NCBI GenBank assembly: GCA_017745595.1
Contig: WMBV01000037.1
Location: 1 to 51,378, forward strand
Source: Bordetella petrii
Lineage (GTDB): Bacteria; Pseudomonadota; Gammaproteobacteria; Burkholderiales; Burkholderiaceae_B
Direction of reading: 5' to 3'
Length of the DNA: 51,378 bases
Position numbers and translations under genes: made by a program. The notes beneath the pieces were generated by a model. The model was not told the DNA's origin, did not search any database, and saw only the letters and a list, made by a program, of their open reading frames with translations. Shown here piece after piece: positions 4,932 through 49,660 of the stretch (position 1 is its first letter; each line of letters starts with the position of its first letter).

Positions 4932-5057
4932 GGTGTCTGGCTCCCGTCAGGGGGCCAGACACCGTATTAGTGAAGCAGCTTCTGCCCATTTCGGTGTCCG
5001 ACACCCTGCGGGAGTCGGACACCTGGCAACACAAGCACTCTGCGGGAGTCGGACACC
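4932..5057. repeat. REP-like palindrome pair (inverted doublet) plus a half copy
   Basis: The first palindrome, 4932-4963, has arms GGTGTCTGGC / GCCAGACACC. The second, 4993-5023, has arms GGTGTCCGAC / GTCGGACACC and its core is in the opposite orientation. The spacer is 29 bp. A half copy ending GTCGGACACC follows at about 5036-5057. The two palindromes differ in sequence, yet each keeps matched arms. They lie between the RidA terminator and the DUF3309 gene. Confidence 0.85.
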
Positions 5058-5177
5058 CGGAAGCCTGGCAGGCATGCCCCCGCAGGCAGGGCGCCTCGCC
5101 GGGGCGCCCGGGCACGCCGCTTGCAGAGGGCCGGGCGACGGCCGGATGGCCGTCCCGACAATCACAAGGAGCACGCC

Positions 5178-5330
5178 ATGGGTACTATCCTGCTGATCAT
5201 CCTGATCCTGCTGCTGATCGGGGCATTTCCAAGCTGGCCTTACAGCCGCGGCTGGGGGTATTACCCGAGCGGCCTGCTGGGCATCGTGGTCATCATCCTG
5301 ATCGTGATGCTGCTGACCGGCAGGCTATAG
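5178..5330 (+). CDS. DUF3309 small membrane protein
   Basis: A 50-residue, very hydrophobic protein with two membrane segments, roughly residues 3-15 and 30-47, joined by the loop PSWPYSRGWGYYPSG. This Trp/Tyr/Gly-rich loop between two Ile/Leu helices is the signature of the DUF3309 family, found in many proteobacteria without known function. ATG at 5178 follows an AAGGAG ribosome binding site 7 bp upstream. It stands alone, convergent with the flavodoxin-like gene that ends 3 bp away, with REP-like palindromes upstream. Too little is known to assign a role. Confidence 0.8.
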   Translation: MGTILLIILILLLIGAFPSWPYSRGWGYYPSGLLGIVVIILIVMLLTGRL

Positions 5331-5332
5331 CG

Positions 5333-5845
5333 TCATTCTTCGCCGGCCAGCAGGGTGGCGGCCAGCAGGCCGCCCAGCTCTTCGCACCGTTGCAGCGCTG
5401 CCAGGGGCACGGTCTTGGGGGCCAGGATGGCTTCCGGTGTCTGGGCGCCATTGCGTTCGATCAGGGCCGGCGCCACCGCGCGCAGCCGCCAGCCCGTGCA
5501 GATGCGGTCGGCCTGGCGGGCCGCGCCGGCGCCGTCGCTGCCGGCGCTGATCGCCAGGGCGTAGGGCCGGCCCTGGATGCGGTCCAGCACGCCGTAATAG
5601 CAGCGGTCGAAGCATTCTTTCATTTCGCCGCTCAGGCTGGCCAGGTTCTCGGGCGCGCAGAATAAATACCCGTCGGCGGCCAGCAGGTCCGCCGGCTCGA
5701 CGCCGCGGGCGCGCCGCGCGCTGACCCGCAGGCGGTCGGCCAGTTCCAGCGCAATGCCCGCCTGGCGCGCCCCGCGGGCCAGCGCGCGCGCCATCTGGCG
5801 CGCCGCGCCGGTGCGCGAATGCCAGACAATCAGCAGCTGTTTCAT
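5333..5845 (-). CDS. flavodoxin-like NAD(P)H-dependent FMN reductase family protein
   Basis: A 170-residue protein with a flavodoxin-like fold. The N-terminal LLIVWHSRTGAARQMA is an FMN phosphate-binding loop, and YLFCAPENLASLSGEM matches the second flavin-contacting loop of the family. ATG at 5845 overlaps the upstream mtfA stop by 4 bp (ATGA), which indicates translational coupling. The substrate is not predictable; members reduce quinones, FMN or other small acceptors. Its tight link with mtfA suggests co-regulation, but no functional link is established. Confidence 0.75.
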   Translation of the reverse strand: MKQLLIVWHSRTGAARQMARALARGARQAGIALELADRLRVSARRARGVEPADLLAADGYLFCAPENLASLSGEMKECFDRCYYGVLDRIQGRPYALAISAGSDGAGAARQADRICTGWRLRAVAPALIERNGAQTPEAILAPKTVPLAALQRCEELGGLLAATLLAGEE

Positions 5846-6705
5846 GCCGGCACCTGTCCCTGGCCGGCCGGCCGCTCCAGGCGGCCCAGCGGGTCCTGGC
5901 GGTAGTAGGCGCGCAGCAGCTCGTACCATTGCGGCAAGGCCTGCGCCAGCGGACCCGGATCGACGAAAAAGTGTTCCGAACTGACGGCGAAGAACTCCGC
6001 CTCGTCGGTGGCGGCGTAAGGGTCCAGGGGCAGTTGGCCGTACCAGGCGTCGGCGGCCTCGCTTTCGGGGTCGATGTGGCGCGGAATGGCGGCTTCCACG
6101 GCATCCAGCGCCGCGGTAAAGCGTTCCAGGCTGTCGTCCAGCACTTGCCGCCAGGCCCGCGGGCTCAGGTCGCGGTGCGCTCCCAGGGCCGGCATGCCAT
6201 CGGCGTGGCCCGACGAAAGATCCAGCTTGTGGGCGAACTCGTGGATCACGACATTGAAAGCGCCGGCGCCGGGCAGGGTGTCGGCCCAGGACAGGATCAC
6301 CGGGCCGCCTTCCCAGGCTTCGCCGGCGGCGGCTTCGTCGTATTCGTGCACCACGCCCACGTCGTCCTGCTGTACGCGCGGGATGGAAAAGCCTTCGGGG
6401 TACACAATGATCTCGTCCCAGCCCTCGTACAGCGCCGGGGCCAGGTTCAGGATGGGCAGGGCTGCCTGGGCGGCGATCGACAGGCGCATGAAGTCATCCA
6501 GCCGCAGGCCGCGCGCGCCGTTGAGGTTCTTGCTGGCCAGTAGCCAGGCCGCGCGCGCGAGCAGTTGTTCGCGCTCGGTTTCGTCGAGCACGGCCAGGAA
6601 GGGGTGCGCCTGCAGCACCCGCGTCCACAGCTCGGGCGCGATGCGGGATTGCACCTGCGCCACCGCCGAGGCACCCGCGCCCCGGCCCTTCAGCCATCGC
6701 AACAT
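5842..6705 (-). CDS. mtfA: MtfA (DgsA anti-repressor) M90-family zinc metallopeptidase
   Basis: Cytosolic zinc aminopeptidase of the M90 family. In E. coli MtfA binds the repressor Mlc (DgsA) and so affects the glucose PTS. The HEFAH zinc motif is in VIHEFAHKLDLSSG, with further acidic residues in the C-terminal half as in the family. I chose ATG at 6705 (MLRWLKG) because an AAGGAA ribosome binding site lies 9 bp upstream; an alternative ATG at 6726 adds seven residues. Length is 287 residues against 265 in E. coli. The gene is divergent from relA. Whether an Mlc orthologue exists here is unknown. Confidence 0.88.
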   Translation of the reverse strand: MLRWLKGRGAGASAVAQVQSRIAPELWTRVLQAHPFLAVLDETEREQLLARAAWLLASKNLNGARGLRLDDFMRLSIAAQAALPILNLAPALYEGWDEIIVYPEGFSIPRVQQDDVGVVHEYDEAAAGEAWEGGPVILSWADTLPGAGAFNVVIHEFAHKLDLSSGHADGMPALGAHRDLSPRAWRQVLDDSLERFTAALDAVEAAIPRHIDPESEAADAWYGQLPLDPYAATDEAEFFAVSSEHFFVDPGPLAQALPQWYELLRAYYRQDPLGRLERPAGQGQVPA

Positions 6706-6809
6706 AACTTTTGGTTCCTTGAACATGCCGGCCGCGCGGGCGTCGCGGCGCTTGCGCTTAGTGTAGAGTGTAGGAAAATTCTGCTTTTTGCCGGCCTGGT
6801 TCGTACGCG

Positions 6810-9038
6810 ATGTCCGTAATACCCGATACCGATGCGTTCTCGCCGTTCGACGACTCCTGGCGCGAGGTCGCCGGAGCCGGCCTCGATTCCGGTGCGCTGG
6901 AACACATCGAGCGGGCCGTGGCCTGGGCCATGCCGCAGTTCGCCGGCCAGCGCACTGCTACCGGCGAACCCCTGGCGCGCCATGCCGCCGGCGCGGTGCG
7001 CATCCTGGCCGGGCTGCAAACCGACGTCGCGGTGCGCATGGCCGCATTGCTGGCGGTGCTGCCCACCGATTTGTCCAGCCCCGCGCCGCCGCTGCGCAAC
7101 GACCCCATCGCCGCTGAGTTCGGGGCCGAGGTCGCCCGCCTGGTGCAGGGCGCGCGCGCCCTGTTGCGCCTGGGCATGGTGGCGCGCCACGCCAGCGACA
7201 GCGCCGCCGCCAGCGTCGACCAGAAAGAAATGCAGCGCAAGATGCTGCTGGCCATGGCGGCCGACCTGCGCATCGTGCTGATGCGCCTGGCCTCGCGCCT
7301 GCAGACCTTGCGCTGGCACGCCGAATCCAAGACCCCGTGCGCCCCGGCCTTCGCCCAGGAAACGCTCGACCTGTATGCGCCCCTGGCCAACCGGCTGGGC
7401 ATCTGGCAGGTCAAATGGGAAATGGAAGACCTGGCGTTCCGTTTTCTCGAGCCCGAGCGCTACAAGCAGATCGCGCGCCTGCTCGAAGAAAAACGCGTCG
7501 AGCGCGAGGCCTTCATTGCCGGCGCCATCGAGCGCGTGCACGCCGCGCTGGCCAAGGCCGGCATCCCGGCCGAAGTCAGCGGGCGCCCCAAGCATATCTA
7601 CAGCATCTGGAACAAGATGCGCCTGAAGGGGCTGGAATTCTCGCAGCTGTACGACCTGCGCGCGCTGCGGGTCATCGTCGACGACGTACGCGCCTGCTAT
7701 ACGGCGCTGGGCCTGGTGCACGACATGTGGAGCCCCATCGCCGACGAGTTCGACGACTATATTTCGCGCCCCAAGCCCAACGGCTACCGTTCGCTGCACA
7801 CCGTGGTGGCCGACGATGACGGCCGGCCGTTCGAGGTGCAGATCCGCACGCGCGGCATGCACCAATTCGCCGAATACGGCATGGCCGCGCACTGGCGCTA
7901 TAAAGAAGCGGGCAGCAAGGGTGGCCAGGTGGCGGCCTCCAGCGAATACGACCGCCAGCTGTCCTGGATGCGCCAGCTGCTGGCCTGGAACACCGATATG
8001 GAGTCCGGCGGCGGCAAGGCCGCCACGCCGGCCCACGCGCCGCGCGATGAACGCATCTACGTCCTGACGCCGCAGGCGCGCGTCATCGAGCTGCCGGCCG
8101 GCGCCACGCCGGTGGATTTCGCCTACCACTTGCACACCGACCTGGGGCACCGCTGCCGCGGCGCCCGCGTCGACGGCCAGATGGTTCCGCTGCAAACCCA
8201 TCTGGCCACCGGCCAGACGGTCGAGATCATCGCCGCCAAGGCCGGCGGGCCGTCGCGCGACTGGCTCAACCCGCAACTGGGCTTCCTGGCCAGCCCGCGG
8301 GCCCGCGCCAAGGTGCGCATGTGGTTCAACGCCATCGAGCTGCAGCAGCGCATCACCACCGGCCAGGCGCTGGTCGAAAAAGAACTGCAGCGGCTGGGCA
8401 AGACCGCGGTCAATCTCGAGCAACTGGCGCAAAGCCTGGGCTTCGCGCGCGCCGACGACCTGTACGTGGCCGCCGCCAAAGACGAATTCAGCCTGCGCCA
8501 GATCGACGCCGTATTTCAGCAGCCGGCGCCCGAAGCCGAGCCCGACGCCGCCGACCTGGCCAACGCGCACAGCGCCGACAGCGCCGCGCGCAGCGGCAAG
8601 AGCGGGGTGCTGGTGGTGGGCGTCGACTCGCTGCTGACCCAGCTGGCGCGCTGCTGCCGGCCCGCGCCGCCCGACGAGATCGCCGGCTTCGTGACGCGCG
8701 GGCGGGGCGTGTCCATCCACCGCACCGGCTGCCGCAGCTACCAGGCGCTGGCCGCGCGCGAGCCCGAACGGGTCATCGACGTGGCCTGGGGCACGACCTC
8801 CGAAACGTTCTACCCGGTCGATATCAGCGTGCGCGCGCACGACCGTTCCGGCCTGCTGCGCGACCTGTCGGAAGTGTTCGCCCGGCAGCGCCTGAACGTG
8901 GTGGGCGTCAACACGCAAAGCCGCCAGTCGCTGGCGCACATGATCTTCACGGTCGAGGTGCGCGGCGGCGAGTCGCTGGGCAAGGTGCTGGCGGCCCTGT
9001 CCGAAGTGCCGGGCGTGACCTCGGCGGGGCGGCATTAG
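6810..9038 (+). CDS. relA: GTP pyrophosphokinase RelA, stringent response (p)ppGpp synthetase
   Basis: Ribosome-associated alarmone synthetase of 742 residues that makes (p)ppGpp when uncharged tRNA accumulates. The N-terminal part has the hydrolase-like fold, but the HD metal-binding motif is missing (ARHAAGAVRILAGL, then LAVLPTDLSSP), so hydrolase activity is unlikely. The synthetase domain follows, with ADEFDDYISRPKPNGYRSLH carrying the EXDD signature typical of monofunctional RelA rather than the RXKD of SpoT/Rel. A TGS domain starts at RIYVLTPQARVIELPAG, and an ACT domain forms the C-terminus (DRSGLLRDLSEVFA). It is transcribed alone, divergent from mtfA, and ends next to a palindrome doublet. 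Confidence 0.93.
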   Translation: MSVIPDTDAFSPFDDSWREVAGAGLDSGALEHIERAVAWAMPQFAGQRTATGEPLARHAAGAVRILAGLQTDVAVRMAALLAVLPTDLSSPAPPLRNDPIAAEFGAEVARLVQGARALLRLGMVARHASDSAAASVDQKEMQRKMLLAMAADLRIVLMRLASRLQTLRWHAESKTPCAPAFAQETLDLYAPLANRLGIWQVKWEMEDLAFRFLEPERYKQIARLLEEKRVEREAFIAGAIERVHAALAKAGIPAEVSGRPKHIYSIWNKMRLKGLEFSQLYDLRALRVIVDDVRACYTALGLVHDMWSPIADEFDDYISRPKPNGYRSLHTVVADDDGRPFEVQIRTRGMHQFAEYGMAAHWRYKEAGSKGGQVAASSEYDRQLSWMRQLLAWNTDMESGGGKAATPAHAPRDERIYVLTPQARVIELPAGATPVDFAYHLHTDLGHRCRGARVDGQMVPLQTHLATGQTVEIIAAKAGGPSRDWLNPQLGFLASPRARAKVRMWFNAIELQQRITTGQALVEKELQRLGKTAVNLEQLAQSLGFARADDLYVAAAKDEFSLRQIDAVFQQPAPEAEPDAADLANAHSADSAARSGKSGVLVVGVDSLLTQLARCCRPAPPDEIAGFVTRGRGVSIHRTGCRSYQALAAREPERVIDVAWGTTSETFYPVDISVRAHDRSGLLRDLSEVFARQRLNVVGVNTQSRQSLAHMIFTVEVRGGESLGKVLAALSEVPGVTSAGRH

Positions 9039-9073
9039 GGGGATATGGCGGGGGATATTGCGGGGGATATTGC
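9038..9073. repeat. 12-bp tandem repeat, three copies
   Basis: Three consecutive units of GGGGGATATTGC (the first reads GGGGGATATGGC) start at the last base of the relA stop codon and end 1 bp before the palindrome doublet. Confidence 0.8.
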
Positions 9074-9074
9074 A

Positions 9075-9165
9075 GGTGTCTGACTCCCGCAGGGTGTCAG
9101 ACACCGACGCATGGCCAGGCTATCCCGACACTGCGGTGTCTGACACCCTGCGGGAGTCAGACACC
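9075..9165. repeat. REP-like palindrome pair (inverted doublet)
   Basis: Copies at 9075-9105 (core TCCCGCAGGGT) and 9135-9165 (core ACCCTGCGGGA) have the same arms, GGTGTCTGAC / GTCAGACACC, and lie in inverted orientation with a 29-bp spacer. The reverse complement of the spacer contains CTGGCCAT, shared with the doublet at 40 kb in the form CTAGCCAT. Confidence 0.9.
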
Positions 9166-9262
9166 TGGGCCCACACCCGGGCCCGGCCCGACACCGGGAC
9201 CGCCGCCTGGCCGCCGGCCGTTCTGGCCTACACTGGTGTTTTGTCCCGTCGAGAATCGTTAC

Positions 9263-10417
9263 ATGGATACGCGTACCTGGCTGGAAACGCTGGTGGGCAT
9301 CGATACCACCAGCCGCAACTCGAACCTGGGCCTGATCGAAACCGTGCGCGACAACCTCAAGGCGCAGGGGGTGCCGGCCTGGCTGGCGCACAACGCCGAC
9401 GGCGGCAAGGCCAATCTGTTCGCCACCCTGCCGGCCAGCGACGGCGGCGAGCAGGGCGGTATCGTGCTGTCGGGCCACACCGACGTGGTGCCCGTCGACG
9501 GCCAGGCCTGGTCGACCGACCCGTTTTCCCTGTCGGAATCCGACGGCCGGCTGTACGGCCGCGGCAGTTGCGACATGAAGGGCTTCATCGCCGCGTCGCT
9601 GGCGCTGGTGCCCGAATTTCTGGCCATGCCGCGCAAGAAACCCATCCACCTGGCGTTTTCGTACGACGAAGAAGTCGGCTGCGTGGGCGCGCCGGTCATG
9701 CTGGCCGAATTGCGCGAGCGCGGCATCCGGCCCGACGGCTGCGTGGTGGGCGAACCCACCGGCATGCAGGTGGTGGTGGCGCACAAGGGCATCAACCTGT
9801 TCCGCTGCTGTGTGCAGGGCAGGGCGGCGCATTCGTCGCTGACGCCGCGCGGCTGCAACGCCATCGAATACGCGGCGCGCCTGATCTGCCGCATCCGCGA
9901 ACTGGCCGATGCCCTCAAGGCGCAGGGTCCGTACGACGAGTTCTACGACGTGCCGTATTCCACGCTGACCACCAACCTGATCCAGGGCGGCATCGCCGTC
10001 AACACCATTCCCGAGCATTGCGAGTTTTCGTACGAGTTCCGCAACCTGCCGGGCATGCCGGCCGACGCGATCCAGGCCCAGATCGAGCGCTATGTCCAGG
10101 AAACGCTCTTGCCGGCCATGCGGGCCGAGTTCGACGACGCCCGCATCGATATCCAGGCCGGGGCCATGGCGCCGGGCCTGGACGCCTCCGAAGAGGCCGC
10201 CATTACTCAACTGGCGCGGGCCCTGACCGACGACCGCGCCACCCGCAAGGTAGCCTACGGCACCGAGGCCGGCCTGTTCCAGAACCTGGGCGTGCCCACC
10301 GTGGTGTGCGGCCCCGGGCATATCGAACAGGCGCACAAGCCCGACGAATACGTGGCAATCGACCAGCTCGCGGCCTGCGAGAAGTTCCTGCGCCGCCTGG
10401 GGCAGTCGCTGGCCTAG
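9263..10417 (+). CDS. argE: acetylornithine deacetylase
   Basis: M20-family zinc amidohydrolase of 384 residues that removes the acetyl group from N-acetylornithine in arginine biosynthesis. Metal-binding motifs are GHTDVVPVDG and YGRGSCDMKG, and the catalytic glutamate is in SYDEEVGCVGAP. The C-terminal GPGHIEQAHKPDEYV carries the last metal-binding His. ATG at 9263 matches the family N-terminus MDTRTWLETLVGIDTTSRNS. Related M20 deacetylases are similar, but the GRGSCDMKGF and EVGCVGAP motifs favour ArgE. It lies between a palindrome doublet and trpB. Confidence 0.88.
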   Translation: MDTRTWLETLVGIDTTSRNSNLGLIETVRDNLKAQGVPAWLAHNADGGKANLFATLPASDGGEQGGIVLSGHTDVVPVDGQAWSTDPFSLSESDGRLYGRGSCDMKGFIAASLALVPEFLAMPRKKPIHLAFSYDEEVGCVGAPVMLAELRERGIRPDGCVVGEPTGMQVVVAHKGINLFRCCVQGRAAHSSLTPRGCNAIEYAARLICRIRELADALKAQGPYDEFYDVPYSTLTTNLIQGGIAVNTIPEHCEFSYEFRNLPGMPADAIQAQIERYVQETLLPAMRAEFDDARIDIQAGAMAPGLDASEEAAITQLARALTDDRATRKVAYGTEAGLFQNLGVPTVVCGPGHIEQAHKPDEYVAIDQLAACEKFLRRLGQSLA

Positions 10418-10526
10418 CGCCGATGGGCCCCCGCGCGGGGCCGCCCCGTCCGCTCGGGTAAAATGGCGGGTTGCGAAGCGGGCTTCGCGGTGAACGGTGC
10501 GTTTGCCGCCAGCCCAGGAGAAACTG

Positions 10527-11726
10527 GTGAAATCTTACGATCTTCCCGATGCCCAGGGCCATTTCGGCCAATATGGCGGCGTGTTCGTGGCCGAAACGCT
10601 GATGCACGCGCTCGATGAGCTGCGTTCGGCCTACGACCGTTGCCGGGTCGACCCCAAGTTCGTCGAAACCTTCAACTACGAACTCAAGCATTTCGTCGGG
10701 CGTCCCAGCCCCGTCTACCACGCGGCCCGCTGGTCGCGCGAACTGGGCGGCGCACAGATCTGGTTCAAGCGCGAAGACCTGAACCACACCGGCGCGCACA
10801 AGGTCAACAATTGCATCGGCCAGGCGCTGCTGGCCCGCCACATGGGCAAGCCCCGCGTCATCGCCGAAACCGGCGCTGGCCAGCACGGCGTGGCCACCGC
10901 CACGGTGGCGGCCCGCTACGGCATGGAATGCGTGGTGTACATGGGCAGCGAAGACGTCCGGCGCCAGGCCTCCAACGTGTACCGCATGAAATTGCTGGGG
11001 GCCACGGTGGTGCCGGTCGAGTCGGGCTCGCGCACCCTGAAAGACGCGCTGAACGAAGCCATGCGCGACTGGGTCACCAACATCGAAAACACGTTCTACA
11101 TCATCGGCACGGTAGCCGGCCCCGACCCGTATCCGCGCATGGTGCGCGACTTCCAGACCGTCATCGGCAACGAATGCCTGCAGCAGATGCCGCAAGACGC
11201 CGGCCGCCAGCCCGACTACGTGGTGGCCTCGGTGGGCGGCGGCTCGAATGCCATGGGCATCTTCTACCCCTATATTCCGTACGAGCAGGTGCGGCTGGTG
11301 GGCGTCGAAGCCGCCGGCGAAGGGCTGGCCAGCGGCCGCCACGCGGCCTCGCTGGCGGCGGGGCAGGTCGGCGTGCTGCACGGCAACCGCACCTACGTCA
11401 TGCAGGATGCCGACGGCCAGGTGCAGGAAACCCATTCGGTCTCGGCCGGCCTCGACTATCCCGGCGTGGGCCCCGAGCACGCCTGGCTGAAAGACAGCGG
11501 GCGGGCCCAGTACGTGGGCATCACCGACGACGAAGCCCTGGCCGCGTTCCACGATTGCTGCCGCATCGAAGGCATCATGCCGGCGCTCGAGTCGTCGCAT
11601 GCCATCGCGCAGGCCGTGAAAATGGCGCCCACGCTGCCGCAAGACAACATCATCCTGGTCAATTTGTCGGGCCGCGGCGACAAAGACATGCATACCGTCG
11701 CCGAACGCGCGGGCATCCAGTTCTGA
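10527..11726 (+). CDS. trpB: tryptophan synthase beta chain
   Basis: PLP enzyme of 399 residues that condenses indole and serine to tryptophan. The PLP lysine is Lys92 in [10 protein letters not shown], and the glycine-rich phosphate loop is [11 protein letters not shown] chose GTG at 10527 ([14 protein letters not shown]) because AGGAG lies 6 bp upstream and it matches the usual Bordetella-type N-terminus; another GTG at 10497 is in frame. trpA follows after 4 bp. trpF, often next to trpBA in related bacteria, is not here; argE is upstream instead. A possible -10 TAAAAT lies at about 10459. Confidence 0.95.
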
Positions 11727-11730
11727 CACC

Positions 11731-12591: not shown

Positions 12592-12627
12592 AGCCGCCGC
12601 GCGCTGCCTTTCTACGGAAGAACGACA

Positions 12628-21756: not shown

Positions 21757-21950
21757 TTTGACAGGTGCCTGACACCGCCTGTGTGGAGAGGTTCGCGGCC
21801 GGCTTCGGTGTCTGACACCCTCTGGGAGTCAGACACCCGGCGAGGTGATTTGACAGGTGTCAGGCTCCGCAGGTGCCTGACACCGCTTGTGTGGGATGCT
21901 CGCGGCCGGCTTCGGTGCCTGACACCCTCTGGGAGTCAGGCACCCGGCGA
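21757..21950. repeat. tandem duplication of a palindrome-doublet unit
   Basis: Two diverged copies both start with TTTGACAGGTG (21757 and 21849) and end with CACCCGGCGA (21843 and 21950). The second holds a complete inverted doublet: 21856-21884 (GGTGTCAGGC / GCCTGACACC) and 21914-21944 (GGTGCCTGAC / GTCAGGCACC), 29 bp apart. The first keeps 21807-21837 (GGTGTCTGAC / GTCAGACACC), but its left palindrome is reduced to 13 bp (21764-21776). The loss equals 16 bp between two AGGTG direct repeats. The unit sits between the convergent genes msrQ and the amidase. Confidence 0.85.
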
Positions 21951-34912: not shown

Positions 34913-34957
34913 GCCCCCCGAAGCCGGGGGGGCAGGCTCCGCAGGTGCCTGACCCCG
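34913..34957. repeat. hairpin after mucD and degenerate REP-like palindrome
   Basis: GCCCCCC / GGGGGGC (34913-34933) lies directly after the mucD stop without a T tract. It runs into GGCAGGCTCCGC and AGGTGCCTGACCCC, a decayed copy of the palindrome type seen at 21856-21884. Confidence 0.55.
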
Positions 34958-40096: not shown

Positions 40097-40130
40097 AGCG
40101 GTGCGCAGGGGGGCGCAGTAGGGGGGCCCA

Positions 40131-40267
40131 GGTGTCTGACTCCCGCAGGGTGTCAGACACCTAAGTGTGCAAGCGGTCTAGCCATATCGGTGTCTGACAC
40201 CCTGCGGGAGTCAGACACCTGGCTAAGGGAGTCAGACACCTGCCAGACCTGCCAGACCTGCCAGAAG
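40131..40267. repeat. REP-like inverted doublet, half copy and 9-bp tandem repeat
   Basis: Palindromes at 40131-40161 (core TCCCGCAGGGT) and 40189-40219 (core ACCCTGCGGGA), arms GGTGTCTGAC / GTCAGACACC, are separated by 27 bp. A half copy GGGAGTCAGACACC is at 40227-40240, followed by three units of TGCCAGACC (the last TGCCAGAAG) to 40267. They lie between the convergent genes recO and the PliI-like gene. Confidence 0.88.
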
Positions 40268-41056: not shown

Positions 41057-41172
41057 GGTGTCCGACTCCCGCAGGGTGTCGGACACCGGTGCCTGGAGCT
41101 TCTGCACACAGCGGTGTCAGGCACCCTGGCGGGAGCCAGACACCTGGCAAGACCTGGCCGGAGCCAGGCACC
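41057..41172. repeat. REP-like inverted doublet plus half copy
   Basis: Palindromes at 41057-41087 (arms GGTGTCCGAC / GTCGGACACC) and 41113-41144 (GGTGTCAGGC / GCCAGACACC, one mismatched pair) have opposite core orientation and a 25-bp spacer. A half copy ending GAGCCAGGCACC follows to 41172. Confidence 0.85.
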
Positions 41173-41205: not shown

Positions 41206-41229
41206 CCGGATGCCGGCGAGTAAACCCGG

Positions 41230-42073: not shown

Positions 42074-42442
42074 TCAGCCGGGGCGCACGGCCCGCGCGGC
42101 GCGTTCAATGAGGGCGGGCAATTCGGCTTCCAGGCGGGCGCGCAGGCCGGCCGCGGCCTCGTCCACGGCCTGCTGCAGCGCCTGTTCCAGTTCGGCCTGC
42201 AGGGCCGCGCGCAGCACCGCGTCGCCGGCCGCCGCGCTGCTCCAGGCGGCCTGGGGCGAGCCCGCGCCGCCGGCTGCTTCGGCATGCGCCGGCGCGGCCG
42301 GGGCGTCGGCCACCTGGGTCAGGACGGGCAGATCGGCGCCGGGCGAGGGGGGCGGGGCGGACGGAGCGGCGGGAATAGGCGCCAGGGTGGGCTCGGCCCG
42401 CTGGGTCAGCGTGGGGATGCCGGGATCGGAATAATGAGGCAT
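42074..42442 (-). CDS. DUF2486-like hypothetical protein
   Basis: A 122-residue protein: a Pro/Ala-rich N-terminal half starting MPHYSDPGIPTLTQRAEP and a helical, possibly coiled C-terminal half (ALQAELEQALQQAVDEAAAG). This N-terminal PxLTxR-type motif and the place directly after holC match the DUF2486 family of Burkholderiales, of unknown function. It lies 19 bp after holC on the same strand. Disorder is likely in the first 60 residues. The family call is tentative. Confidence 0.6.
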   Translation of the reverse strand: MPHYSDPGIPTLTQRAEPTLAPIPAAPSAPPPSPGADLPVLTQVADAPAAPAHAEAAGGAGSPQAAWSSAAAGDAVLRAALQAELEQALQQAVDEAAAGLRARLEAELPALIERAARAVRPG

Positions 42443-42461
42443 TGGGGGCTCCAGGGTCGGC

Positions 42462-42905
42462 TTATGCCGAGCGGCCCGCCAGGTCGTGGCTGTGGGGCGT
42501 ATGGCCGGCGGCCTGATACGCGCGCCAGCGCTGGCGCGCCGCCTGGCGGTCGGCGGGGTCGTCGGAGACGACTTCCAGAACACGTTCGAATCCATCGTAG
42601 CCGGGCGGGCAGCCGTCGTCGAGGTTGAGCAGCCAGCACCCGGCGGCGTCGCCCGCCGCGGCGGGCTGGGGCGCGGCGGCGGTCAGGACGACCGGCGTGT
42701 CGGCGGCCAGCGGATCGGATGCCAGGACGTGCGGCACGAACGAGATGTCGTCGAATGCCCACAGCATGCGGTCGAAGGCCGCCAGGCGCGCGCCTTCGGC
42801 GCAATAGACCACCAGCCGCTGGCCCGCCAGGTAGCGCTTGCGGGCGGCCTGGCAGGCGGCCCGCAGGCGGTCGGAGGCGCCGAAGGCGAAGTCGATGCGC
42901 GTCAT
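42462..42905 (-). CDS. holC: DNA polymerase III subunit chi
   Basis: Chi subunit (147 residues) of the clamp-loader complex, which links the polymerase to single-strand binding protein. The start MTRIDFAFGASDRLRAACQ and the middle LVVYCAEGARLAAFDRMLWAFDDISFVPH are typical of HolC, as is LLNLDDGCPPGYDGFERVLEVV. ATG at 42905 lies 17 bp after the pepA stop. The pepA-holC order is conserved in many proteobacteria. Confidence 0.92.
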   Translation of the reverse strand: MTRIDFAFGASDRLRAACQAARKRYLAGQRLVVYCAEGARLAAFDRMLWAFDDISFVPHVLASDPLAADTPVVLTAAAPQPAAAGDAAGCWLLNLDDGCPPGYDGFERVLEVVSDDPADRQAARQRWRAYQAAGHTPHSHDLAGRSA

Positions 42906-42922
42906 GGGCAGGACGGGGGCGC

Positions 42923-44419
42923 TCAGGCCTGGTCGAGTAGGAATTGCATCAGCAGCGGCACCGGGCGGCCGGTGGCGCCCTTGTCTTTGCCGCTGCGCCA
43001 GGCGGTGCCGGCGATGTCGAGGTGGGCCCAGCGGTAGGCCTTGGCAAAGCGCGACAGGAAGCAGGCCGCCGTGACCGAGCCGGCCGGCGGGCCGCCGATG
43101 TTGGCCATGTCGGCGAAGTTGGACTTCAGCTGGTCTTGATAGGCGTCGTCCATGGGCATGCGCCACGCGGTGTCGAGCGCCTGCCGGCCGGCGGCCAGCA
43201 GCGCGTCGGCCAGCGTGTCGTCTTGCGAGAACAGGCCGGTATTGACGTGTCCCAGCGCCACCACGCAGGCGCCGGTGAGCGTGGCGATGTCGACCACGGC
43301 CGACGGCTTGAAGCGTTCGGCGTAGGTGAGCGCGTCGCACAGCACCAGGCGGCCTTCGGCGTCGGTGTTGAGGATTTCGATGGTCTGGCCCGACATGCTG
43401 GTGACGATGTCGCCGGGTTTATTGGCCTTGCCGCTGGGCAGGTTTTCGCAGGCGGCGATCAGGCCCACCACGTCGAGCGGCAGTTCGAGTTCGGCCAGGG
43501 CGCGGAAGGTGCCCAGCACGCTGGCCGCGCCGCACATGTCGTACTTCATTTCGTCCATGGTGGCGGCGGGCTTGAGCGAGATGCCGCCGGCATCGAAGGT
43601 GATGCCCTTGCCCACCAGCACCACCGGGCCGGACTTGGATTTCTTGGCCGGCTTGGCGGCGTGGCGCAGCACGATGAAACGCAGCGGTTCGTCGGAACCG
43701 CGCGCCACCGACAGGAACGACCCCATGCCCAGGGCCTCGACCTGCTTGCGGTCGAGCACTTCGACCTTCAGCGACTTGAATTCGCGCGCCAGCTTCTTGG
43801 CGGTGTCGCCCAGATAGGTGGGGGTGCAGACATTGCCGGGCAGGTTGCCCAGGGTGCGGGTGAGTTCCATGCCGCGGGCGATGGCGCCGCCTTCGCGCAG
43901 GCCCTGCTGGGCTTGCGCGGTGTCGCCGCGTTCGACCACTTGCGTGATTTTCTTCAGCTTGGGGCGGGCTTCGCGGTCGGGCTTGCCGAAGGTGGCGTCG
44001 TAGTGATAAGAGGCGGTGCCGGCGGCGATGGCGGCCGAGCGGGCGCGGGCACGCATGGCGGTGTCGGCGATGGGGTTGGCGGCCAGGGTGGAGACGGCTT
44101 CGGCGACCCGCGCCGCCACGCAGGCCGCGGCAAAGCCTTGTTCGGCCGCGGCATGCGCGCGCGCGTTGTATTCGTTTTGCTTGCCCAGGCCCACCAGCAC
44201 GACGCGCTGCGCCGAGACGCCGGGCAGCGCGCGCAGCACTAGCGTGGTGCCCGCGCGGCCGCGGAATTCGGCCTTGACTACGTTGCGCACGGCATTGTTG
44301 CTGGCGCGATCGATGACGTCGGCGGCGGGGCTGAGTTCGCCATCGGCGTACACGCCCACGGCCAGCGCGGCGGTCTTGATTTGATGCAGGGAAGCGGTGG
44401 TCTGTGTGCTAAATTCCAT
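42923..44419 (-). CDS. pepA: leucyl aminopeptidase PepA
   Basis: Cytosolic two-metal (Zn/Mn) M17 aminopeptidase of 498 residues that trims peptides; PepA also binds DNA in E. coli. The C-terminal catalytic domain has VGKGITFDAGGISLKP, MKYDMCGAASVLG and the signature NTDAEGRLVL. ATG at 44419 (MEFSTQTTAS) is preceded by AGGAT-like sequence. It is divergent from lptF with 54 bp between the start codons, an arrangement seen in many gamma- and beta-proteobacteria. Confidence 0.95.
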   Translation of the reverse strand: MEFSTQTTASLHQIKTAALAVGVYADGELSPAADVIDRASNNAVRNVVKAEFRGRAGTTLVLRALPGVSAQRVVLVGLGKQNEYNARAHAAAEQGFAAACVAARVAEAVSTLAANPIADTAMRARARSAAIAAGTASYHYDATFGKPDREARPKLKKITQVVERGDTAQAQQGLREGGAIARGMELTRTLGNLPGNVCTPTYLGDTAKKLAREFKSLKVEVLDRKQVEALGMGSFLSVARGSDEPLRFIVLRHAAKPAKKSKSGPVVLVGKGITFDAGGISLKPAATMDEMKYDMCGAASVLGTFRALAELELPLDVVGLIAACENLPSGKANKPGDIVTSMSGQTIEILNTDAEGRLVLCDALTYAERFKPSAVVDIATLTGACVVALGHVNTGLFSQDDTLADALLAAGRQALDTAWRMPMDDAYQDQLKSNFADMANIGGPPAGSVTAACFLSRFAKAYRWAHLDIAGTAWRSGKDKGATGRPVPLLMQFLLDQA

Positions 44420-44473
44420 GGAGGATTCCCGTGTGCGTGGTGCAGTGCGGTTGATTATCCCGCATATTCTCAC

Positions 44474-45574
44474 ATGTCTCTATTCAAACGGTCTGTGGTC
44501 GCCGAGATCACCAGCCACGCGGGCGTGGTGTTTTCCACGCTGGTGGTAGTGTGGCTCAGCGTGTTGCTGGTGCGCTTGCTGGGCGAAGCCGCCGGCGGCT
44601 CCATCGGCGCCGACGTGGTGCTGGGCCTGGCGGCTTTTTCCACGATTACGGCATTGCCGACGGTGTTGGCGGTGTCGCTGTTCATCGCGGTGCTTACCAC
44701 CGTGACTCGCAACTATCGCGAATCGGAAATGGTGGTCTGGTTCGCCAGCGGCCTGTCGCTGGCCGACTGGCTGCGCCCGGTGCTGCGCGTGGCGGTGCCG
44801 GTGGCCGCGCTGGTGGCCGTGCTGACGCTGGTGGCCTCGCCCTGGGCGTACCGCCAGATCGCCGAATACCGCGAACGGTTCGAACAGCGCTCCGATCTGT
44901 CCAAGGTTACCGCCGGCCAGTTCGCCGAATCGGGCGAGGGCCAGCGCGTGTTCTTCGCCGAAGAGCCCACCAAGCCCGGCGACGAACTGGGCAACGTATT
45001 CGCGCGCGAAATCGGCCCCGAATGGCATAGCGTCATGACGGCCAGCAGCGCGCGCATCGAAACCCAGCCCAACGGCGACCGCTTCCTGGTGCTGGGGCGC
45101 GGGCATCGCTATGACCTGAAACCCGGCACGCCCGAGATCCGCATGGTGGATTTCGTCAATTACGGCGTGCGCCTGGAAAGCAAATCGGGCGATCCCATCG
45201 CCGAGGCGCGCGCCGCCGCCGAGCGGTCCAGCAAGGCCCGTCCCACCATGCAGCTGATCGCCGACGATACCGACAGCGCCTGGTCGCAGATCATGTGGCG
45301 GGTATCGATGCCGCTGGCGGCCCTGAACCTGGCGCTGCTGGCGATTCCGCTGGGCGCCGTCAACCCCCGCCTGGGCCGTTCGGGCGATCTGCTGATCGCG
45401 GGCATGGTGGGCCTGCTGTACATGAACGTCATCAACCTGTCGCGGGCCTGGATCAGCAGCGGCAAGCTGCCGTTCGGCGTGGGCGTGTGGGTGGTGCACG
45501 CGGTGGTGCTGGCGCTGGCGGGCTACCTGCTGATGCGCCGCCTGCGCGTGAAGGCGCCGCGCCAGCCGTCCTAG
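44474..45574 (+). CDS. lptF: lipopolysaccharide export ABC transporter permease LptF
   Basis: Inner-membrane component (366 residues) of the LptB2FG transporter that extracts LPS for transport to the outer membrane. Six membrane segments: three before about residue 125 and three after about 275, enclosing a periplasmic beta-jellyroll (AEYRERFEQRSDLSKV to YGVRLESKSG). ATG at 44474 gives MSLFKRSVVAEITSHAG. lptG, which usually follows directly, is absent: the next gene is a LysR regulator on the other strand after 43 bp. Confidence 0.93.
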   Translation: MSLFKRSVVAEITSHAGVVFSTLVVVWLSVLLVRLLGEAAGGSIGADVVLGLAAFSTITALPTVLAVSLFIAVLTTVTRNYRESEMVVWFASGLSLADWLRPVLRVAVPVAALVAVLTLVASPWAYRQIAEYRERFEQRSDLSKVTAGQFAESGEGQRVFFAEEPTKPGDELGNVFAREIGPEWHSVMTASSARIETQPNGDRFLVLGRGHRYDLKPGTPEIRMVDFVNYGVRLESKSGDPIAEARAAAERSSKARPTMQLIADDTDSAWSQIMWRVSMPLAALNLALLAIPLGAVNPRLGRSGDLLIAGMVGLLYMNVINLSRAWISSGKLPFGVGVWVVHAVVLALAGYLLMRRLRVKAPRQPS

Positions 45575-45617
45575 CCGCGCCCGTCCGGGCGGCGCGGCGG
45601 ACCGCCCGGCTTCGGGT

Positions 45618-46538
45618 TCATGGCAGATAGCGCATGCCCCCCTGGCGGCCCGCCAGCAGCGCGGCATTGCGCACCACCGAGCGGCGCATGAAATCCCACA
45701 GCACCGCCATGCGCTTGAGCTTGTGCAGGTCTTCGTGGCAGTACATCCAGAAGCTGCGCGTGATGGCGATATCGTCTTCCAGCACCGGTACCAGGCGCGC
45801 GTCCTGCGCGGCGATGAAACACGGCAGGATCGCCAGCGAACGCCCTTGCAGCGCCGCGTGGTACTGGGCCACCACGCTGGTGCTGCGCAGCACCACGCGG
45901 CTTTCCGGCAGCAGGTCTTCCAGGTAGCGCAGCCGTTCGCTGAACAGCAGTTCGTCGACGTAGCCGATGAAGGTATGCCCGGCCAGGTCGGCGCGCGTCG
46001 CGATGGGCGCATGGCGCGCCAGATAGCCGGGCGTGCCGTACAGGCGCAGGGTGTAGTCGCACAGCTTGGTGCACACGTAGGGCCCGCGCTGGGGCCGCTC
46101 GATGGTGATGGCCAGGTCGGCCTCGCGCTTGGACAGGCTGACAAAGCGCGGCACGGGCAGGATATCGAGCGTGATGTGCGGATAGCGGCGCTGGAAGTCG
46201 GCCGCCAGCGGGGTCAGCACGTAGCTGCCGAAGCCCTCGGTGGCGCCGATGCGCAGGTGGCCCGACAGCGCCTGGCCGATGCCCGACAGGTTTTCGCGCG
46301 CGCTCTGCACCGCGCTTTCCATCTGTTCGGCATAGACGAACAGGCGCTGCCCGTCTTCGGTCAGTACGAAGCCGGTATTGCGCGATTTCTCGAACAGCAG
46401 GGAATCGAGCTCGGCTTCCAGGGCGCGCACCCGGCGCGACACCGTCGTGTGTTCGACCCCCAGCTTGCGCGCCGCCGCGCTGACGCGCTGAGTGCGCGCC
46501 ACCTCCAGAAAATAACGCAGGCCGTCCCAGTCCAGCAT
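45618..46538 (-). CDS. LysR-family transcriptional regulator
   Basis: A 306-residue LysR-type activator/repressor. The N-terminal winged helix-turn-helix is MLDWDGLRYFLEVARTQRVSAAARKLGVEHTTVSRRVRALE; the effector domain begins at about 92 (SGHLRIGATEGFGSYVL). ATG at 46538 is the first family-like start. It is divergent from the periplasmic binding protein gene, the classical layout for a LysR regulator and its target, with TTGTGC repeats between. The ligand is unknown. Confidence 0.9.
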   Translation of the reverse strand: MLDWDGLRYFLEVARTQRVSAAARKLGVEHTTVSRRVRALEAELDSLLFEKSRNTGFVLTEDGQRLFVYAEQMESAVQSARENLSGIGQALSGHLRIGATEGFGSYVLTPLAADFQRRYPHITLDILPVPRFVSLSKREADLAITIERPQRGPYVCTKLCDYTLRLYGTPGYLARHAPIATRADLAGHTFIGYVDELLFSERLRYLEDLLPESRVVLRSTSVVAQYHAALQGRSLAILPCFIAAQDARLVPVLEDDIAITRSFWMYCHEDLHKLKRMAVLWDFMRRSVVRNAALLAGRQGGMRYLP

Positions 46539-46556
46539 AAGAACCTCGTTGGTTAT

Positions 46557-46584
46557 TTGTGCACAACGAATGTGCAATTTGTGC
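46557..46584. promoter_or_regulatory. candidate LysR operator
   Basis: The perfect palindrome TTGTGCACAA (46557-46566) is followed by further TGTGC units (from 46570 and 46580) roughly one helical turn apart, in the 146-bp divergent gap. Spaced repeats like this suit LysR-type tetramers. Confidence 0.5.
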
Positions 46585-46684
46585 TGTTGCCTGATGATTT
46601 TTACACATCTACACTAGATCGGCCGACCTGCCCCCCTGGAAGGGCGCGGCGACAACGACACGAATAAATCACCGGAGACAACAT

Positions 46685-47899
46685 ATGACACTGCACGCTC
46701 GCGGGCTGGCCGCCGGTTTCTGTCTGGGCGCCATGCTGGCCGCCCCCGCCATGGCGGCCGACAAGCCGCCCGTCAAGATCGGCGTTCTTACCGACATGTC
46801 GGGCACGTACGCGGCCATGGGCGGCGCGGGTTCGGTGGCTGCGGCGCAACTGGCCATCGACGACTGCCTGGCGGCGGAATGCAAGGGCATGAACATCGAG
46901 CTGGTGTCCGCCGACAACCAGAACAAGGCCGACGTGGGCGCGTCGCGGGCGCGCGAATGGTTCGACCGCGACGGCGTGACCGCCATCGCCGACCTGACCA
47001 ATTCCGCGGTGGCGCTGGCGGTGCAGGGCATCGCCCGCGAAAAGAACAAGGTGGTGATGTTCTCGGGCCCCGCCACCACCGCGCTGACCAACAAAGAATG
47101 CTCGCCGGTGGGCTTTCACTGGATGTTCGACACCTATTCGCAGTCGGCCGGCGGCGCCAAGGCCACCGTGCGCGCGGGAGGCAAGTCGTGGTACTTCATC
47201 ACGGTGGACTACGCCTTCGGGCACTCGCTGGAAGCCGACACCGCCAAGGCGGTCAAGGCGCTGGGCGGCACGGTGGTCGGTTCGGTGCGCCATCCCCTCA
47301 ACGCGCCCGATTTCGCCTCGTATCTGCTGCAGGCGCAAAGCTCCAAGGCGCAGGTGGTGGCGCTGGCCAATGGCGGGCAAGACACCGTGAACGCGGTCAA
47401 GCAGGCGCGCGAGTTCGGCATCGTCGAGGGCGGCCAGCGCCTGGTGTCGCTGCTGATTTTCCTGTCCGACCTGCGCGCCCTGGGCCTGGATAACGCGCAG
47501 GGCCTGTCGTACGTGGACGGCTTTTACTGGGACTACGACGACGCCACCCGCGAATGGTCGAGCCGCTTCGAAAAAGCGTTCCGCGGCCTCAAGCCCACCA
47601 TGACGCAGGCCGGCGTGTATTCCAGCGTGCTGCACTACCTGCGCGCCGTGGCCGCCACCGGCAGCACCGACGGGCGCACGGTGGCCGACAAGATGCGCGA
47701 GCTGCCGATCAAGGACCCGATCATGCGCAATGCCAGCATCCGGCCCGACGGCCGCGTCATCCACGACATGTATCTGTACGAGGTCAAGAAGCCGGGCGAG
47801 TCCAAGGGCGGCTGGGATTATTCCAAGCTGGTCGCCACCATCCCGGCCGCCGAGGCCTTCCAGCCGCTGGCCGATTCGACCTGCCCGCTGCTGAAATGA
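46685..47899 (+). CDS. branched-chain amino acid-type ABC transporter substrate-binding protein
   Basis: Periplasmic type-I binding protein of 404 residues (LivJ/LivK-like, Peripla_BP_6). Signal peptide about 1-24 (MLAAPAMA-ADKPP). The core starts VKIGVLTDMSGTYAAMGG, the usual pattern for this family. No permease or ATPase gene is adjacent, so it is an orphan that must borrow a transporter or serve as a sensor. Divergent LysR upstream and mmsA downstream suggest a role with valine, aromatic or related carboxylate catabolism. The ligand is inference. Confidence 0.88.
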   Translation: MTLHARGLAAGFCLGAMLAAPAMAADKPPVKIGVLTDMSGTYAAMGGAGSVAAAQLAIDDCLAAECKGMNIELVSADNQNKADVGASRAREWFDRDGVTAIADLTNSAVALAVQGIAREKNKVVMFSGPATTALTNKECSPVGFHWMFDTYSQSAGGAKATVRAGGKSWYFITVDYAFGHSLEADTAKAVKALGGTVVGSVRHPLNAPDFASYLLQAQSSKAQVVALANGGQDTVNAVKQAREFGIVEGGQRLVSLLIFLSDLRALGLDNAQGLSYVDGFYWDYDDATREWSSRFEKAFRGLKPTMTQAGVYSSVLHYLRAVAATGSTDGRTVADKMRELPIKDPIMRNASIRPDGRVIHDMYLYEVKKPGESKGGWDYSKLVATIPAAEAFQPLADSTCPLLK

Positions 47900-47906
47900 T
47901 GGAGTC

Positions 47907-47984
47907 CACCCCCGAAGCGCTGTGCGCTTCCTCTTCAAGGGGGCGACGCTGGCGGACCGGCAAAGCCGGCTCCGCGGCGTCCCC
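47907..47984. repeat. multi-hairpin intergenic repeat between the binding protein gene and mmsA
   Basis: CCCCC and GGGGG enclose GAAGCGC, TGT, GCGCTTC (47914-47930), then CCGGCAAAGCCGG (47957-47969) flanked by GCGGA / CTCCGC. From memory, this type of element recurs between genes in Burkholderiales genomes. Only one copy is in this window. Confidence 0.55.
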
Positions 47985-48016
47985 AATTGAATCCGTGTAT
48001 CTATGAGGAGCAACCC

Positions 48017-49510
48017 ATGAGTGAAATCCCCAGCGTACCGCTCTTGATCGGCGGCAAGCTCGTTCAATCCAAGACGACTGAATGGCGCGACGTGATCGAT
48101 CCTGCCACCCAGAAAGTGGTCGCCCGCGTTCCCTTCGCCACGCGCGAAGAGCTGGATCTGGCGGTGTCCAATGCCAAAGAAGCGTTCCAGACCTGGCGCA
48201 ACACCGGGCAGGGCGCGCGCATGCGCATCATGCTGAAGCTGCAGCAACTGCTGCGCGAAAACACCGGCAAGCTGGCCGAGATGATCACACGCGAGCATGG
48301 CAAGACCCTGCCCGATGCCGAGGGCGAGGTCGGGCGCGGCCTGGAAGTCGTCGAGCACGCGTGCTCGATCGCCAACCTGCAACTGGGCGAGTATGCCGAA
48401 AATGCCGCCGGCGGCATCGACGTCTATACCCTGATCCAGCCGCTGGGCGTGTGCGCCGGCATCACCGCGTTCAATTTCCCGGTGATGCTGCCGTGCTTCA
48501 TGTTTCCCATTGCCGTGGCCTGCGGCAATACCTTCGTGCTCAAGCCGTCCGAGCAAGATCCCACTTCTTCGCTGTTCCTGGCCGAGCTGGCCCTGGAAGC
48601 CGGCCTGCCGCCGGGCGTGCTGAACGTGGTGCATGGCGGGCCCGATATCGCCAACGGCCTGTGCGAACACCCCGACATCAAGGCGGTATCGTTCATCGGG
48701 TCGACCCGGGTCGGCTCCGAGATCTACCAGCGTGCCTCGAATGCCGGCAAGCGTTGCCAGGCCATGATGGGGGCCAAGAACCACTGCGTGATCCTGCCCG
48801 ACGCCGATCCCGAAGTGGCGCTGAACCAGCTGTTGGGCGCGGCCTTCGGCGCGGCCGGCCAGCGCTGCATGGCCGCCTCGGTGGCGGTGCTGGTGGGCGA
48901 GGCGCGCAACTGGCTGCCCGACTTCGTCGAGCGCGCCAAGCGCCTGAAGGTCAACGCCGGCACCGACCGCCAGGCCGACCTGGGGCCGCTGGTGTCGCCC
49001 AATGCCAAGAAGCGCGTCGAAAGCCTGATCCAGAAGGGCGTGGACGAGGGCGCCAAACTGCTGCTGGACGGCCGCGACCTGAAGGTGGCGGGATTCGAGC
49101 AGGGCAATTTCGTGGGCCCCACGGTGTTCGAAGGCGTGACCGAGGACATGACCATCTACACCGAAGAAATCTTCGGGCCGGTGCTCGGCGTGGTCGGCGT
49201 CGACACCCTGGAAGAAGCGGTGGCGTTCATCAACCGCAATCCCAACGGCAACGGCGTGGCGCTGTTCACCCAGGACGGCGGCGCGGCCCGCTACTTCCAG
49301 AACAACATCGACGTGGGGCAGGTGGGCATCAATATTCCCATTCCCGTGCCGGTGGCGTGGTTCAGCTTCACCGGTTCGCGCGGCTCGAAGCTGGGCGACC
49401 TGGGCCCCAACGGCAAGCAGGCCGTGCACTTCTGGACCCAGACCAAGACCGTCACTGCCCGCTGGTCGGCGCACGGCCGTTCGGTGAACACCACGATCTC
49501 GATGCGTTAA
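48017..49510 (+). CDS. mmsA: CoA-acylating methylmalonate-semialdehyde dehydrogenase
   Basis: Oxidises (methyl)malonate semialdehyde to propionyl- or acetyl-CoA in valine and beta-alanine degradation. 497 residues, an ALDH fold. Cys284 is the catalytic thiol in AAGQRCMAAS. The usual ALDH general-base region reads MMGAKNHCVI, the form that marks the CoA-acylating MMSDH subgroup. ATG at 48017 is preceded by GAGGAG. It is downstream of the binding protein gene and followed by palindromic repeats. No other val-catabolic genes (mmsB, bkd) are in view. Confidence 0.92.
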   Translation: MSEIPSVPLLIGGKLVQSKTTEWRDVIDPATQKVVARVPFATREELDLAVSNAKEAFQTWRNTGQGARMRIMLKLQQLLRENTGKLAEMITREHGKTLPDAEGEVGRGLEVVEHACSIANLQLGEYAENAAGGIDVYTLIQPLGVCAGITAFNFPVMLPCFMFPIAVACGNTFVLKPSEQDPTSSLFLAELALEAGLPPGVLNVVHGGPDIANGLCEHPDIKAVSFIGSTRVGSEIYQRASNAGKRCQAMMGAKNHCVILPDADPEVALNQLLGAAFGAAGQRCMAASVAVLVGEARNWLPDFVERAKRLKVNAGTDRQADLGPLVSPNAKKRVESLIQKGVDEGAKLLLDGRDLKVAGFEQGNFVGPTVFEGVTEDMTIYTEEIFGPVLGVVGVDTLEEAVAFINRNPNGNGVALFTQDGGAARYFQNNIDVGQVGINIPIPVPVAWFSFTGSRGSKLGDLGPNGKQAVHFWTQTKTVTARWSAHGRSVNTTISMR

Positions 49511-49543
49511 GAGGCCGCGGCCGATAGGCCGGGTGTTCGTAGT

Positions 49544-49660
49544 GGTGTCAGGCACCTGGCGAGTTTCCAGGTGTCTGACTCCCGCAAGGGTGTCGGACAC
49601 CGGTACGCCGGTTCGCCGTCAAATTCCAAGGTGTCTGACTCCCGTAGGGTGTCAGACACC
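49544..49660. repeat. cluster of REP-like palindromes between mmsA and cysB
   Basis: A short GGTGTCAGGCACC is at 49544-49556. Full copies are at 49570-49601 (arms GGTGTCTGAC / GTCGGACACC, one wobble pair) and 49630-49660 (GGTGTCTGAC / GTCAGACACC). The two full copies have the same core orientation, unlike the other doublets, and are 28 bp apart. Confidence 0.85.

Follow-up and report, generated by a model that had tools for sequence, protein, structure and literature searches.

What are the short palindromes that recur between genes in a 51,378-nucleotide (nt) stretch of Bordetella petrii DNA (contig WMBV01000037.1 of assembly GCA_017745595.1), and how did they come to be there? A first-pass annotation of this stretch, hereafter the window, had read them as repetitive extragenic palindromic sequences (REPs) arranged in inverted pairs, or REPINs, elements moved by a REP-associated tyrosine transposase (RAYT). 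Copy number, spacing and a REP-flanked RAYT gene all support this reading; movement of the pairs by the RAYT is carried over from accounts of other RAYTs (PMC3116915, PMC8049555, PMC8266576). We consider it very likely that the repeats form a population of REPINs with a single-copy RAYT of their own, including the mechanism and the descent from a TIRYT-type transposase proposed below; this RAYT probably copies the REPs. The window is contig 30 of a source genome of 6,098,296 bases in 68 contigs, and comparisons covered 268 genomes of the family and a Bordetella group of nine genomes (genomes, contigs and loci are given below by G, C and L numbers). Among the nearest relatives in the set is Bordetella petrii MY10 (G001), which matches the named record L015 in its protein and, consistently, in position.

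All thirteen palindromes reported for the window are present at the starts given for them, and the gaps of the five inverted pairs are indeed 29, 29, 29, 27 and 25 nt. The six sites all lie between genes, as had been claimed, according to the home-made, unvalidated gene caller on which every intergenic placement in this study depends. Other parts of the description needed revision. Paired inverted palindromes had been described at six sites; the five inverted gaps hold, whereas the copies at 49570 and 49630 form a direct repeat 28 nt apart. The three copies at 21807-21944 exist, but make better sense as a tandem of two units, in the first of which the left REP is reduced to 13 nt. The list of thirteen had also overlooked a degenerate copy at 34928-34956. 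Searching the window with a 31-nt pattern (up to 3 mismatches) gave 18 strand-matches at 9 places; dinucleotide shuffles of the window gave a mean of 0.00. The features are as follows, F and R being the two directions of a REP.

4932-5023, unstranded: REPIN 1, inverted pair with a 29-nt spacer, REPs at 4932-4963 (R) and 4993-5023 (F)
5048-5057, plus strand: half-REP fragment GTCGGACACC
9075-9165, unstranded: REPIN 2, inverted pair with a 29-nt spacer, REPs at 9075-9105 (R) and 9135-9165 (F), the arms fully complementary
21764-21837, unstranded: REPIN 3a as we read it, with a left REP reduced to GGTGCCTGACACC (21764-21776) and a right REP at 21807-21837 (F)
21856-21944, unstranded: REPIN 3b, inverted pair of a 29-nt REP (21856-21884 R) and a 31-nt REP (21914-21944 F), 29-nt spacer
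34928-34956, plus strand: degenerate single REP GGGGGCAGGCTCCGCAGGTGCCTGACCCC of the 29-nt type, intergenic
40131-40219, unstranded: REPIN 4, inverted pair with a 27-nt spacer, REPs at 40131-40161 (R) and 40189-40219 (F); G003 carries a similar unit at this site
40231-40240, plus strand: half-REP fragment GTCAGACACC
41057-41144, unstranded: REPIN 5, inverted pair with a 25-nt spacer, REPs at 41057-41087 (R) and 41113-41144 (F); the right half also occurs in G003
41163-41172, plus strand: half-REP fragment GCCAGGCACC
49544-49556, plus strand: 13-nt half-REP GGTGTCAGGCACC
49570-49601, minus strand: REP in R orientation, first of a same-direction pair
49630-49660, minus strand: REP in R orientation, following the first of the pair by 28 nt

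Copies beyond the window, which the REPIN proposal predicts, are plentiful. The sequence TCCCGCAGGGT occurs exactly at 441 sites in the source genome (214 + 227 on the two strands), compared with 5 for the reversed pattern (2 + 3). A genome-wide scan with the 31-nt pattern at no more than 1 mismatch found 573 places, and a 29-nt variant at no more than 2 mismatches found 136 (61 + 75). Thus, the source genome holds at least about 700 REPs. At gathering scores, Rfam had no match in the window. The repeat was also without a match in plasmids and phages (blastn, E 1e-5) and in viral contigs (exact 31-mer), so the family was seen only in the genome sets searched.

The anatomy of the repeat was determined on 129 REPs in 843,907 bases of the source genome (844 kb; C11 1-400000, then 140, 120 and 120 kb of C4, C6 and C3, plus the window and the tail of C36 with the transposase, both picked for their repeats); the same sequence reversed contained one. 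The REP is a hairpin of about 29-32 nt with a 10-bp stem, a short upper stem and a small loop, and a single copy folds as 10 bp, a mismatch, 3 bp and a 3-nt loop. In most REPs the mid-stem mismatch is A.A or T.T, which gives the REP a direction: 62 were F and 60 R, 3 were weakly assigned and 4 unassigned. A neighbour lies no more than 100 nt away for 118 of the 129, and the 65 neighbour pairs comprise 44 R-then-F, 11 F-then-R, 5 FF, 1 RR and 4 ambiguous cases. The spacing preference sought for these repeats is pronounced, with 27-30 nt between the REPs in 30 of the 44 inverted pairs (24-32 nt in 38, 23-32 nt in 39, mode 29 nt with 15 pairs). As is characteristic of REPINs, most REPs (84 of 129) are members of one of 42 RF pairs whose gap does not exceed 35 nt. 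When folded as single-stranded DNA, the pair at 40129-40221 forms one hairpin of -45.7 kcal/mol (z -14.8). Since the 29-nt spacers resemble each other (n = 15, mean identity 42% versus 26% for shuffled spacers), the spreading unit looks like the pair and not the single REP. The four bases 5' of the hairpin in 125 REPs were G (.54), C (.55), C (.84) and A (.90), and the base just inside, read on the F strand, was C in 91%. A pair is accordingly bounded by a conserved CA..TG directly outside (GCCA..TGGC, the outer letters being weaker) and by G..C directly inside. In these 125 REPs, the 5' foot of the hairpin does not carry the GTAG (or GTGG) tag that defines the GTAG-tagged REP superfamily.

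The source genome has one Y1/HUH transposase gene, a RAYT, with the same REPs on both sides; the first-pass annotation had suggested looking for just such a matching single-copy gene. RAYTs with REPs on both sides were found in all six gene-bearing genomes of the Bordetella group. The protein has a Y1/HUH fold with HxH and Y...NP motifs, and that of the source genome scores 86.4 bits against NCBIfam NF047646, whose cut-off is 80 bits. Its stop codon is inside the adjoining REP (L009:1261-1269), so that the REP sets the last residues of the protein. In G005, a tandem array of six REP-bearing units with a 117-bp period stands beside the RAYT (L011:618-1239).

We then consider where the REPs stand and how stable their sites are. 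Among the sampled REPs, 120 of 129 are intergenic, in convergent (63), tandem (52) or divergent (5) gaps; the others are at a gene edge (2), inside a called gene (1) or unplaced for want of a called gene on one side (6). Counted per gap, REPs occupied 30 of the 87 between convergent genes, 27 of the 459 between tandem genes and 3 of the 97 between divergent ones, the same distribution as reported for REPs in PMC3733652. The window is syntenic with its relatives, and turnover was assessed by reading the gaps at its six sites by eye in 32 site-genome cases, checked with a half-motif scan. The empty orthologous sites that had been sought exist, in comparisons that were all between species: 25 of the 32 cases have no REP, and one more, G007 at 40131, is likewise REP-free but contains some 4 kb of other sequence. 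G003 has the unit at 40131 and the right half of that at 41057, with the same or a similar spacer (2 cases), and own, different repeats occupy the remaining 4 (G006 at 9075 and 49570, G007 at 4932, G003 at 49570). G003 also has several tandem arrays, one of which consists of six REPs mostly 181 bp apart (G003:C1:3908127-3909085).

Across the family, repeat and enzyme go together. In 16 of the 268 genomes the half-palindrome GGTGTCWGACAC was matched at least 10 times on the forward strand, and 10 of these 16 contain, at E<=1e-45, a RAYT of the type described here (the short RAYT, as opposed to the long relatives discussed below), counting a broken copy in G006. None of the other 252 genomes has one, and the highest half-motif count there is 3, on either strand. 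The arrangement of the repeats varies. REPs of 31 nt paired with about 29 nt between them occur in G000, G003 and G004. In G007, 13-nt palindromes are often 50-54 nt apart, start to start, and among the matches listed the same step recurs in Achromobacter genomes; 20 kb of G062 contained 5 motifs, and none was found in 20 kb of G083. G006 has other arrangements, partly in the same direction.

Could the hairpins instead serve the host, as terminators, mRNA stabilizers or protein-binding sites, kept by selection and spread by ordinary duplication without a transposase? The strong bias towards the 3' ends of genes (63 convergent and 52 tandem against 5 divergent REPs) is what such a function would produce. 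However, it does not predict fixed spacing and direction with similar spacers, the presence of these REPs on both sides of the RAYT in 6 of 6 genomes, family-wide co-occurrence or turnover between species. The 31-nt pattern is, moreover, unmatched in 2 of the 9 group genomes, and the repeat is therefore dispensable. We regard a host function of this kind as very unlikely, and give still less credit to the idea that the units are miniature inverted-repeat transposable elements moved by another transposase (of the DDE type or from an unrelated insertion sequence), with the RAYT adjoining by chance. The units are indeed short, non-coding, terminally inverted and numerous, but REPs flank the only Y1 gene on both sides in 6 of 6 genomes, and no target duplication was seen in the flanks viewed, which were not tested systematically; other transposase families were not searched for.

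The repeat might also be one already published, the Bor repeat (26-30 bp in Petrillo 2006; 93-117 bp for the Bor-1 form in Cozzuto 2008) in another species, with only the RAYT link being new. Bor repeats are described as REP-like intergenic hairpins in Bordetella (PMC1590033, PMC2267715): they share the genus name, the 30-bp hairpin and the intergenic position, and Bor-1 of B. pertussis, given as 93 bp in 128 copies, is close in length to the 93-bp unit studied here, a comparison of size only. Those accounts tie no transposase to Bor, with which the present repeat was compared by description and not by consensus. Bor is said to resemble E. coli REPs, which the present sequence, unaligned, does not obviously do, and the 31-nt pattern (<=1 mismatch) is absent from 258 of the 268 family genomes. 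Two genomes of another genus of the family, tentatively taken for Bordetella proper and examined over 220 and 260 kb, had no abundant palindrome family, from which nothing follows. Identity with Bor thus appears unlikely, though less so than either of the foregoing alternatives. The REPIN/RAYT reading remains by far our preferred one, and the relatives of the enzyme bear on its origin.

Among the best 80 of 498 named relatives, the first outside Bordetella were three Achromobacter short forms at 65-67% identity; next came Oxalobacteraceae and others at no more than 45%. Two trees were built, a quick one of 99 proteins and a careful one of 51 with the C-terminal extension left out, both without group 3 proteins and without the interrupted copy of G006. 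The short forms (5 from Bordetella, 3 from Achromobacter and 1, on a long branch, from G141) stand beside six long Achromobacter-type proteins with a support of 98 in the 99-protein tree and 96/95 in the 51-protein tree, and far removed from the subclass 2.2 proteins, E. coli RayT included; within Bordetella, G007 branches first. Because the order of the outer long forms changed, and long branches met in the 51-protein tree, we use only the clade of short and long Achromobacter-type forms. A C-terminal GRP tail is present in 0 of 9 short forms, 5 of 6 long Achromobacter-type forms and 58 of 69 other relatives. By description, the long Achromobacter-type forms would be TIRYTs, or subclass 2.1, a class equated with RAYT group 1 and described as having a C-terminal domain and no REP-like sequences nearby (PMC6006769); subclass 2.1 probably corresponds to the TIRYTs of Di Nocera 2013 (PMC6006769; PMC3733652). 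Of the residues with which E. coli RayT contacts GTAG (W94, Q95, E100, H101 and R104), the short RAYTs keep W; in all nine, Q is replaced by E, E by S or C, H by R or W, and R by D or G. These changes fit the lack of GTAG beside the REPs, and some of these residues are changed in the long forms too.

The REP itself is composed of the motif GGTGTC(A/T)GAC, which also makes up the terminal inverted repeats (TIRs) of the long forms. Of five long Achromobacter-type loci scanned (L146 was left out), L144, L147, L148 and L149 had inverted repeats holding GGTGTCAGACT on both sides, and L145 had none. The TIR-like motif AAGGTGTCAGACTRC (<=1 mismatch, both strands) had 11-32 matches in five long-form genomes; the counts were 1, 2 and 1 for G000, G003 and G006 and 0-9 for the remaining short-form genomes that were searched. 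Genomes with no listed enzyme have the motif as well, for example G061 (47 matches).

Some loci in this set stand out in their own right. In G143, the whole genome gave 337 matches to AAGGTGTCAGACTRC (179 + 158), so that a large TIR family is dispersed there alongside a long TIRYT-type enzyme. At least 34 TIR-like motifs, with at least 9 inverted pairs whose starts are 34 nt apart, lie in about 24 kb of G061 (C4:596085-620160), which has the look of a cassette-like region with TIR pairs as its markers. In G066 (C48:5945-7948), the long TIRYT-type genes L148 and L152 are almost identical and lie in tandem with their flanking repeats.

How might the pairs move? By analogy with other RAYTs and with IS200/IS605, a site would become single-stranded, probably as lagging-strand template, and the RAYT would bind both hairpins of a pair. 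Its HUH/tyrosine centre would cut at the hairpin foot beside the CA-containing tag, and the whole pair would be copied or moved into another single-stranded site. Copies would persist mainly downstream of genes, where they are probably least harmful. From the tree, the loss of the extension, the changed GTAG residues, the shared motif and the co-occurrence, we infer that the REPIN system arose within the TIRYT branch by a TIR motif turning into a hairpin. The RAYT would descend from a TIRYT-type transposase whose TIRs carry one GGTGTCAGAC motif, its ancestor would have lost the C-terminal extension, and paired GGTGTCAGAC copies would have given first 13-nt palindromes, as in Achromobacter and G007, and later the 31-nt REP of the B. 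petrii side. The basal position of G007 fits this order from 13-nt to 31-nt units, without proving it. We lean slightly towards a further step, namely that this was a second birth of REPIN/RAYT, in the TIRYT branch, and that living Bordetella and Achromobacter keep its stages: a long enzyme with single-motif TIRs, a short enzyme with 13-nt doublets, and 31-nt REPs with 29-nt spacing and a CA/GCCA tag.

Several observations weigh against this overall interpretation. Transposition, excision and cleavage are beyond sequence data, and none was seen. Because the compared genomes belong to different species, an empty site may be a loss, and gain cannot be told from loss site by site. Related genomes are not independent, so no probability is attached to 10 of 16 versus 0 of 252. 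Six of the 16 repeat-rich genomes (G004, G063, G075, G087, G092 and G097; the assembly of G087 is 78% complete) had no RAYT at the threshold used; their orphan populations amount to 32-152 forward half-motifs. REP-keeping genomes without a transposase gene, as well as RAYTs in repeat-free species, are both described (PMC3733652), and since enzyme loss is thus on record the orphan genomes do not contradict the REPIN/RAYT reading. The RAYT of G006 holds an internal TGA (L012, G006:C4:168851-169411), yet 307 places there match the 31-nt pattern; with 570 forward half-motifs, these repeats may be a population that lost its enzyme. The 29-nt doublet is not universal, as 200-kb samples of G006 and G007 contained no RF pair, and 12 of the 14 REPs in G007 and 7 of the 25 in G006 could not be given a direction. 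The G007 RAYT scores 77.9 bits, below the NCBIfam cut-off. In the 51-protein tree, a single short clade is supported by 97/63 and is not starred. One 'long' protein, L145 of G068, has only 184 amino acids and no tail; 'short' therefore denotes a clade and not length alone. Finally, a Pfam scan of five long forms found no helix-turn-helix and, in one, a sub-threshold DUF6725, so that they are assigned to subclass 2.1 by their length, tail, motif and TIRs.

Compared with known systems, the repeats resemble the REPIN/RAYTs of Pseudomonas, Stenotrophomonas and E. coli as described in PMC3116915 and PMC8266576, with inverted extragenic doublets that form one hairpin, hundreds of copies and a single-copy RAYT flanked by the same REPs; the mid-stem mismatch is comparable to the bulge of E. 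coli REPs. They differ in the tag, CA/GCCA instead of GTAG, in the replacement of Q95, E100, H101 and R104 in 9 of 9 short RAYTs, and in an enzyme on another branch than subclass 2.2 in our trees. The TIRYTs (subclass 2.1, RAYT group 1; again labelled by description) are nearest to the short RAYT in the tree and share with it the motif W[EQ]xR[FY], and the long Achromobacter-type TIRs hold GGTGTCAGAC, a half-motif of the present REP. Unlike TIRYTs, described as longer, with a C-terminal extension and reported without nearby REPs (PMC3733652, PMC6006769), the short RAYT lacks the extension and is accompanied by up to hundreds of hairpin REPs or palindromes. At six Bordetella-group loci such REPs stand on either side of the gene, a departure from the TIRYT pattern of TIRs with no nearby REP. 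The nearest published parallel is the self-complementary TIR families of S. maltophilia, described as TIRYT TIRs dispersed as dimers or clusters (PMC3733652), in another lineage and likened here by description and not by sequence. BRE (Hot 2011, PMC3110155) is also about 90 bp, from Bordetella and mostly intergenic; unlike the present repeats, it is given as 8-22 copies per Bordetella genome, also in Comamonadaceae and sometimes in tandem, and is not described there as REP pairs (the sequences were not compared). A literature search covering few subscription papers and no preprints found no account of the present repeat family or of a RAYT linked to Bordetella repeats.

The REPIN/RAYT reading accounts for a large intergenic repeat that differs between species on the B. 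petrii side of Bordetella. It would add to the REP owners a type of RAYT reported without REPs, and a tag besides GTAG. The origin of REPINs has been conjectured to lie in hairpins that flanked an ancestral transposon and became dependent on a captured transposase (PMC3116915). In the present case, a single branch of enzymes includes both members flanked by TIRs and members that own REPINs, with a common motif, and the step of origin is therefore testable by swaps of enzyme and substrate; these relatives suggest how mobile repeats may arise from ordinary transposon ends.

Just before REPIN 1, at 4867-4894 of the window, there is a terminator-like hairpin followed by a T run; G005 has this hairpin without the REPIN.

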